From positions 1-61,602 of the forward strand of contig SGYL01000002.1 in NCBI GenBank assembly GCA_004213885.1: DNA of 61,602 nucleotides, written 5' to 3'. The stretch's first letter is position 1. Each line of letters starts with the position of its first letter. Shown here piece after piece: positions 47,622 to 49,088 of this stretch. The DNA comes from Alphaproteobacteria bacterium. GTDB taxonomy: Bacteria > Pseudomonadota > Alphaproteobacteria > Puniceispirillales > Marisalimonadaceae. Under the pieces are notes generated by a model, which saw only the letters and a list, made by a program, of their open reading frames with translations, did no database searches and was not told the origin of the DNA. A program made the translations under genes and the position numbers.

Positions 47622-47653
47622 TTTGATTATTTTCTAAATAGAATTATCATATA

Positions 47654-47748
47654 ATTGTCATTACCTCTTTTTGTGAGAGCGTTTTAAATAACCGCCGAAG
47701 GAGCAACTACCCTAGAAACTCTCAGGTAAAAGTATCATAAAGAGTTGA
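47654..47748 (+). promoter_or_regulatory. Tandem glycine riboswitch, leader and aptamer 1
   Basis: First of two glycine aptamers. P1 is CTCTTT (47665-47670) with AAAGAG (47739-47744). The core shows GAGAG (47675-47679) pairing with CTCTC (47719-47723), the conserved CCGAAGGAGCAA and the CTCTCAGGTAAA block. The leader ATTGTCA (47654-47660) is perfectly complementary to TGACAAT (47746-47752) in the linker, which is the P0 pairing known to close tandem glycine riboswitches. The identification rests on these conserved blocks. Confidence 0.9.
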
Positions 47749-47749
47749 C

Positions 47750-47836
47750 AATCTGGAGAGAGACATACTTTATGTCCACCGAAGGAGTAAGCTCATACGA
47801 CGAGTTAATCTCTCAGGTACACATGACAGATTAGGG
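47750..47836 (+). promoter_or_regulatory. Tandem glycine riboswitch, aptamer 2
   Basis: Second aptamer in the pair, joined to the first by a very short linker. P1 is AATCTG (47750-47755) with CAGATT (47827-47832). The conserved core reads GGAGAG, CACCGAAGGAGTAAG and ATCTCTCAGGTACACATGACAGA, the standard glycine aptamer sequence. Two aptamers in a row with a short linker are the classical cooperative form. The 3' P1 strand is also available to the downstream hairpin at 47825-47847. Confidence 0.93.
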
Positions 47837-47847
47837 CTTAATTTGTC
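47825..47847 (+). promoter_or_regulatory. Predicted riboswitch expression-platform hairpin
   Basis: GACAGATT (47825-47832) can pair with AATTTGTC (47840-47847) over eight base pairs, one of them G-U, around a seven-base loop. The 5' arm contains the aptamer 2 P1 strand, so the two structures exclude each other. The 3' arm ends directly at GTGGAG (47848-47853), the probable ribosome-binding site of the following gene at 47859. The hairpin lacks a U run immediately after it, so control of translation is more likely than termination. When glycine holds P1, the hairpin would be undone and the gene turned on. This is a prediction from pairing only. Confidence 0.5.
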
Positions 47848-47858
47848 GTGGAGTTTTT

Positions 47859-49088
47859 ATGAAAAAAATAGCAGTTATTGGCGCAGGCATAACAGGCATA
47901 ACAACAGCATATCAATTAATGAAAAAAGGTTACGATGTAACTGTTTTTGATAAACAAAAGTATGCAGCAATGGAGACAAGTTATGCTAATGGTGGACAAC
48001 TATCCGCATGTAATGGTGAAGTTTGGACAAACTGGAAAACCATTTACCAAGGAATACAGTGGATTTTTAAAAAAGATGCTCCTCTTTCTATTAATTTAAA
48101 ACCTTCCTTAAATAAAATAGGATGGTTTTTAAGTTTTTTATCAAATGTAAAAAATCATGAAAAAAATACAATTGCCACAGTAAAGATGGCAATTGAAAGT
48201 GGCAATCTTTTAAAAGAACTATTAAAAGATGAAAACATTAATTTTGACTTTAAAGAAAAGGGTATTTTACATCTTTGTAATACAGAAGAAAATTTTAACC
48301 ATGGATTAAAAGTTAATAAATGGCTAACAAAAGCAGGTTTAAAAAGAGAACCACTTAACAACAAAGAAATTCAAAAAATTGAGCCTACAATTAATTTAGA
48401 TAATTTTTTTGGTGGTTTTTTTACCAAAAGCGATATGTCTGGAGATATACATCTATTTTGCACTCAATTAGCTGAAATTTGTAAAAAAAACAATGTCAAA
48501 TTTAATTATAATACATCTATAAATGATATAGTTCATAAACATAATTTAGTTGAATTAAAGTTTAGCACTCAAAACACTGACAATACTGATACTTTTGATG
48601 CAACTGTAATTTGTGCAGGTGTATCAAGTAAGCTTATAGCTTCTAAATTAGGAGATAACGTTAATATATATCCTGTAAAGGGCTATTCAATAACGATCGA
48701 TCTTAATGATAAAATTAGCCAAAAACATGCGCCTGAAGTTTCACTACTGGATGATGGAGCTAAAATTGTGTCAAGTAGACTTGGTATAAATAGATTTAGA
48801 ATAGCAGGTACAGCTGAATTTAATGGTTATAATAAAGATATAAGAGAAGACAGAATACTTCCATTGATTAAATGGAGTAACAAACTTTTTCCAAAAGTGT
48901 CAACTGAACACTATAGACCTTGGGCTGGGCTAAGACCTATGACCCCAAATATGATGCCTAAAATTGGTAAAGGCAAATTACCTGGAATATTTTATAACAC
49001 TGGCCACGGACATTTAGGATGGACATTAAGTGCTTTTTCATCTTTATTAATTTCAGATATATTATTAAGAACTGACAATTTAAATTAA
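47859..49088 (+). CDS. dadA: D-amino-acid dehydrogenase-like FAD oxidoreductase
   Basis: Flavoprotein of the DadA/DAO group. The FAD loop is GAGITG (residues 8-13), followed by VTVFDK, ETSYANGGQLSACNGEVW and KKDAPLSI, the family's long N-terminal pattern. The C-terminal end RPWAGLRPMTPNMMPKIG and GHGHLGWTLSAFSS is intact. Length 409 is standard. DadA oxidises D-amino acids and gives electrons to the quinone pool. Here it lies under a tandem glycine riboswitch, which raises glycine or a related small amine as the real substrate. Its stop is two bases from the end of gyrB. Confidence 0.88.
   Translation: MKKIAVIGAGITGITTAYQLMKKGYDVTVFDKQKYAAMETSYANGGQLSACNGEVWTNWKTIYQGIQWIFKKDAPLSINLKPSLNKIGWFLSFLSNVKNHEKNTIATVKMAIESGNLLKELLKDENINFDFKEKGILHLCNTEENFNHGLKVNKWLTKAGLKREPLNNKEIQKIEPTINLDNFFGGFFTKSDMSGDIHLFCTQLAEICKKNNVKFNYNTSINDIVHKHNLVELKFSTQNTDNTDTFDATVICAGVSSKLIASKLGDNVNIYPVKGYSITIDLNDKISQKHAPEVSLLDDGAKIVSSRLGINRFRIAGTAEFNGYNKDIREDRILPLIKWSNKLFPKVSTEHYRPWAGLRPMTPNMMPKIGKGKLPGIFYNTGHGHLGWTLSAFSSLLISDILLRTDNLN

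Follow-up and report, generated by a model that had tools for sequence, protein, structure and literature searches.

A tandem glycine riboswitch precedes a candidate glycine-oxidizing flavoenzyme of the PRK12409 type in a probably marine alphaproteobacterium

Two glycine riboswitch aptamers stand in a row before a gene for a DadA-like flavoenzyme (here dadA) in the 61,602-nucleotide stretch of alphaproteobacterial DNA analyzed here (the window). With a probability of roughly two in three, we propose that this tandem ON switch controls an enzyme that oxidizes glycine to glyoxylate, which malate synthase would consume. The proposal starts from features that were computed, namely both aptamers, the P0 pairing between leader and linker, an alternative hairpin, a conserved linkage of switch and gene, and the pattern of gene presence across genomes.

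A search of the window's own genome with the Rfam glycine model RF00504 matched both aptamers well above the gathering score of 32 (Table 1), which bears out the preliminary description, in which a tandem glycine riboswitch before a DadA-like gene had been read from the letters. The Rfam scan, from which an overlapping match of lower score in the same clan was omitted, listed aptamer 2 alone. No RF00504 match beyond these two aptamers was found elsewhere in the 1.41 Mb, 84% complete assembly. The leader RNA is an ordinary member of the glycine riboswitch class. The open reading frame (409 aa) starts 20 nt past the aptamer 2 match and meets a convergent downstream gene, named gyrB by eye, with the two stop codons 2 nt apart, so the transcription unit looks single-gene; a rhodanese-domain gene lies upstream of the leader on the same strand. 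A predicted sigma-70-like promoter would place the RNA start near P0. The promoter scan of the region is weak alone and no better than chance (5 sites vs 9.8 in shuffles); the pattern TTG-N18-21-TANNNT occurs upstream of aptamer 1 in 33/33 leaders of the family, which are related, against a base-shuffled mean of 5.0 and maximum of 10.

Table 1. Positions in the window of the riboswitch, its predicted expression platform and the gene that follows
Feature	Position	Strand	Remark
Predicted promoter TTGATT-N16-TATCAT	47623..47650	+	9/12 matches
P0 leader strand	47656..47660	+	pairs with 47746-47750
Glycine aptamer 1 (RF00504, 52.8 bits)	47662..47747	+	P1 tested: 47665-47670 with 47739-47744
Glycine aptamer 2 (RF00504, 59.9 bits)	47743..47839	+	P1 core: 47751-47755 with 47827-47831
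P0 linker strand	47746..47750	+	pairs with 47656-47660
Expression platform: anti-P1 hairpin, exclusive with aptamer 2 P1	47822..47850	+	predicted
Shine-Dalgarno GGAG, first G within hairpin	47850..47853	+	sequence
PRK12409-type flavoenzyme, proposed glycine dehydrogenase/oxidase	47859..49088	+	profile and fold comparison

As expected for RF00504, the tandem architecture includes a leader-linker P0. Seven base pairs had been described for it, and seven bases are readable in the letters (47654-47660 with 47746-47752), of which the outer ones at 47751-47752 are also part of aptamer 2 P1; the comparative support covers the inner five pairs, which form in 90.9% of cells across 22 leaders of the order, not all seven. 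The alignment used (A3) holds 22 of the order's 38 dadA-linked leaders. In it, P0 and both P1 helices are paired in 95.7% of cells, a value that falls to 42-53% when the partners are slid by 1-3 columns. At one P0 pair, 12 sequences have GC and the other 10, which are the members of one genus, have AU; a second pair differs on both sides in 3 leaders. Aptamer 2 P1 yields no covariation because its five tested pairs are invariant. Three measures exceeded all 500 shuffles: paired cells, cells altered on both sides, and the score. The other two were not above chance, pairs altered on both sides being reached in 264/500 and pair types in 499/500. The paired percentages overstate the covariation, which rests on few events: the GC/AU exchange is confined to one genus in P0 and to two in the hairpin described below, and each may be a single event.

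The expression platform is coupled in silico to aptamer 2 P1. The 12-nt CATGACAGATTA, which includes the 3' strand of this P1, is complementary to TAATTTGTCGTG, which ends at the first G of the Shine-Dalgarno GGAG. The resulting anti-P1 hairpin has 12 bp and a folding energy of -14.0 kcal/mol, equalled in 0/100 shuffles. It also appears when the leader RNA is folded alone to minimum energy; the total fold energy of the leader is not unusual (z -0.91; 37/200 shuffles as good). Of the 22 leaders scored in the order (22 of the 38 known, partly different from those in A3), 21 have a hairpin z below -2; the exception, G019, has no convincing alternative hairpin (z -0.36). Nine hairpin pairs hold in 95.8% of cells in the 22 leaders of A3, and one of them is AU in 10 and GC in 10. 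Only 1/500 shuffles reached the cells paired; the pairs changed on both sides were reached in 231/500 and the pair types in 500/500. Leaders of other genera have both Gs of the Shine-Dalgarno inside the helix (e.g. G013). Over the full set of 92 leaders, 71 were scorable and 30 had a z below -2, with 9/49 outside the order vs 21/22 inside it, so that taxa outside the order have other platforms or the search pattern missed theirs.

Because the hairpin excludes aptamer 2 P1, ligand should open it, and we predict a glycine ON switch that acts mainly on translation. When glycine is scarce, the 3' strand of aptamer 2 P1 would pair toward the Shine-Dalgarno and block the translation start. The window's genus has five U after the hairpin, which was called terminator-like, and this run leaves termination possible there as well; by eye, most of the printed leaders from the family's other genera have no such uninterrupted U-run after the stem. 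Once glycine is bound, the aptamers would fold, P1 would reclaim its 3' strand and dadA would be translated in vivo. Glycine would then be oxidized by the enzyme, and of the two products, glyoxylate and ammonia, the first would be consumed by malate synthase.

The link between switch and gene extends far beyond the window. Relatives were picked from a named genome collection by similarity to the riboswitch-linked proteins of the order, irrespective of riboswitch presence, and RF00504 was searched in the genomes of the 80 nearest of 555 (50 with stricter filters and 30 in a second set). A glycine riboswitch lies directly upstream of 79 of these 80 PRK12409 genes (49/50 and 30/30), the sole exception being in Granulosicoccus (L120), where a permissive scan also found none. 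The dadA-like target described from the window is common among orthologs rather than peculiar to this genome. Of the 80 records, ten share 63-98% identity with the window protein and overlap in part with the set of 61 order genomes; eight of the ten bear the title SAR116 cluster, and by these titles the window probably comes from a marine SAR116-type bacterium. The other 70 are 50-57% identical, and their titles include Rhodobacteraceae, Rhizobiaceae, Paraburkholderia, Halomonas and Marinobacter. Since the switch recurs before nearly all of the nearest relatives, glycine itself is probably what the enzyme degrades.

One aptamer only was found upstream in 7 of the 50 loci searched with stricter filters; for one of them, L123, 246 upstream bases were covered. 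The single aptamers before dadA in L117, L122, L138, L140, L141 and L152 suggest singlet switches or decayed second aptamers. The dadA stretch of Comamonas testosteroni (L127:4001-5212) has two aptamers upstream and one stop codon in its translation, for which it was left out of alignment A2; L123, L133, L149 and L159 are also absent from A2, with no reason given in the data. Ten other riboswitch loci were picked in dadA-bearing genomes, and eight of them precede gcvT and one a serine ammonia-lyase. The tenth, the third glycine riboswitch locus in the C. testosteroni record (L183:2182-2408), has an MnmC-like open reading frame about 870 nt downstream. Apart from dadA and overlapping frames, no gene cluster is common to more than 14 of the 80 loci. 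A cluster of the M20 peptidase family, with one member typed, lies near dadA in 14/80 loci (L117:1944-3134 among them) and was set aside as too vague a functional clue.

Within the 61 genomes of the order, the riboswitch was found before dadA in 38 and before gcvT in 10, and was not found in 13. A dadA ortholog above 300 bits is present in 39/61, and only G060 has the gene with no riboswitch found (1.6 kb upstream covered). None of the ten gcvT-linked genomes has a dadA ortholog. The gcvP gene is over cut-off in 11/61 genomes, these ten and G039, and gcvH in 12/61, the same 11 and G052. G039 combines a complete cleavage system with a riboswitch-linked dadA, and its gcvT (L179) has no RF00504 match within the stretch scanned; several other Proteobacteria with riboswitch-linked dadA also have gcvT, so dadA is not simply a replacement for the cleavage system. 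The gene occurs without gcvP in three of the order's four families. Twelve of the 61 genomes have neither dadA nor gcvP; G040, G043, G049, G052, G054, G055, G056 and G058, which lack a dadA above 300 bits and a gcvP over cut-off, are 92-99% complete.

In the window's family (f1), dadA is the only glycine riboswitch target found. Across its 37 related genomes, which are 51-100% complete, gcvT, gcvP and gcvH are over the curated cut-off in 0/37; at E 0.001 there is a single gcvP match of 17.6 bits and a single gcvH match of 20.1 bits, and the gcvT-like matches below cut-off in most genomes (best 168 bits) are taken as probable paralogs. Neither dadA nor the riboswitch was found in G001, G003 and G007 of this family. 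None of the 37 genomes has isocitrate lyase over cut-off (best 68 bits), and malate synthase is present in 29/37, a combination that fits the conversion of glycine to glyoxylate. Glyoxylate might also be made from glycolate by FAD-linked oxidases of the family, which score up to 354 bits to GlcD; GlcD is over its cut-off of 568 bits in 0/61 order genomes, with sixteen genomes outside f1 at 510-539 bits.

The protein from the window matches the NCBIfam model PRK12409 / NF009074, named "D-amino acid dehydrogenase", at 595.7 bits against a cut-off of 494, and eight typed relatives score 628-733 bits. Its second best model is classical DadA (PRK00711 / NF001933), the cut-off of which it falls short of (329.6 vs 383), as it does of those of the glycine oxidase ThiO (TIGR02352; 123.5 vs 250.8 bits) and sarcosine oxidase beta soxB (TIGR01373; 42.8 vs 529.45). 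An AlphaFold2 model built from 46 sequences (mean pLDDT 89.6) has glycine oxidases as its closest PDB neighbours, at 18-20% identity, followed by sarcosine oxidases, proline dehydrogenase and others of the same fold; a profile search also places glycine oxidases first. The WAGLRP motif contains an Arg that lines up with the carboxylate-binding Arg of solved glycine oxidases. The model settles the fold but not the substrate; enzymes acting on sarcosine, proline and D-arginine are built on this fold as well. The missed ThiO model, the low identity to glycine oxidases and the NCBI family name all count against glycine oxidation.

The preliminary description had offered glycine, an N-methylated glycine such as sarcosine, or D-amino acids as substrates. 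A glycine-linked role is strongly supported, given the linkage in nearly all nearest relatives and the retention of the riboswitch in lineages that lack a glycine cleavage system, and glycine seems to fit best among the three. The predicted ON direction, the spread over distant Proteobacteria and this same retention together argue for glycine as substrate and glyoxylate as product. D-amino acids would fit less well, as it is not clear why their breakdown should call for a glycine sensor. The enzyme could be a true D-amino acid dehydrogenase if glycine merely signaled amino acid plenty or cell wall stress, and both its assigned name and its second best model would agree with this; we nevertheless consider it unlikely, because the protein falls below the classical DadA cut-off and a D-alanine enzyme would hardly account for a glycine sensor kept before 79 of the 80 related genes. 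Demethylation of sarcosine or another N-substituted glycine, yielding glycine, would suit the sarcosine oxidases among the best folds, but an ON switch, as predicted here, would have the enzyme induced by what it makes, and the score to soxB is far below cut-off, which makes this reading rather improbable.

The remaining alternatives concern the RNA. The switch could be OFF, or act by termination only, as the terminator-like hairpin and U-run of the window's genus would allow; this is very unlikely, since the hairpin excludes aptamer 2 P1 and most leaders of the family's other genera have no comparable U-run. Aptamers of the glycine type that reject glycine, mostly metagenomic, are described in the available parts of two reports (PMC9481103, PMC6944388), and the window could hold a variant with another ligand. 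Both aptamers are well over the RF00504 cut-off, however, and keep the consensus cores (compared as whole cores rather than contact by contact), so we regard a different ligand as barely plausible and glycine as the molecule that would be bound.

The arrangement resembles the tandem RF00504 riboswitches before gcvT operons, which likewise have two aptamers, a leader-linker P0 and a single platform, with predicted glycine-ON control of a degradation gene; the target here is instead a PRK12409 flavoenzyme. Within the order, the aptamer 2 core reads GGAGAG in 22/22 dadA-linked copies (22 of the 38 known; 21 counted by script and G018 by eye) vs GGAAAG in 10/10 gcvT-linked copies; beyond the order, the two kinds cannot be told apart by this letter. 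Classical DadA shares the DAO fold and clear sequence similarity with the window protein. ThiO, which serves thiamine synthesis, is like it in fold and in the proposed reaction. SAR11, also a marine alphaproteobacterial group, has a glycine riboswitch before the malate synthase gene glcB and so places glyoxylate use under glycine control, according to the portions available of PMC2211319 and PMC5069720; there the switch sits on malate synthase, whereas in the window it sits on the step proposed to produce glyoxylate. In the portions available of each source, the main glycine riboswitch targets are gcvT and glcB, with serC as new (Kazanov 2007, PMC2211319), the contexts are cleavage and transport (Crum 2019, PMC6944388), the Pelagibacter targets are gcvT and glcB (Meyer 2009, PMC2704228), and twelve ortholog groups of glycine metabolism are counted and listed in a supplement (Sun 2013, PMC3766115). 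The available text of PMC12452182 has glycine oxidase under TPP riboswitches only, the FAD-dependent oxidoreductase in that of PMC12827605 is the GCSL protein of the cleavage system, and the parts available of PMC7487153 and PMC4433239 have no bearing on a link between the glycine riboswitch and dadA. Nothing in the open-access literature searched, which was partially covered, joins a glycine riboswitch to D-amino acid dehydrogenase, dadA or PRK12409; an earlier listing in the supplement of PMC3766115 is possible.

We give even odds to a broader proposition, that the members of PRK12409 are glycine dehydrogenases under a wrong name and form a widespread riboswitch-controlled disposal route beside the cleavage system, and that the window's SAR116-type family has come to have no other such route and draws on it for most of the glyoxylate that malate synthase uses in cells without isocitrate lyase. 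The interest of the finding lies in the reassignment of the enzyme family, not in the RNA. If the proposition is true, a large family that now bears the name D-amino acid dehydrogenase would pass to glycine catabolism, and it would become clear how streamlined marine bacteria that have neither glycine cleavage nor isocitrate lyase may rid themselves of glycine and supply malate synthase, in parallel with the riboswitch rewiring described in SAR11.
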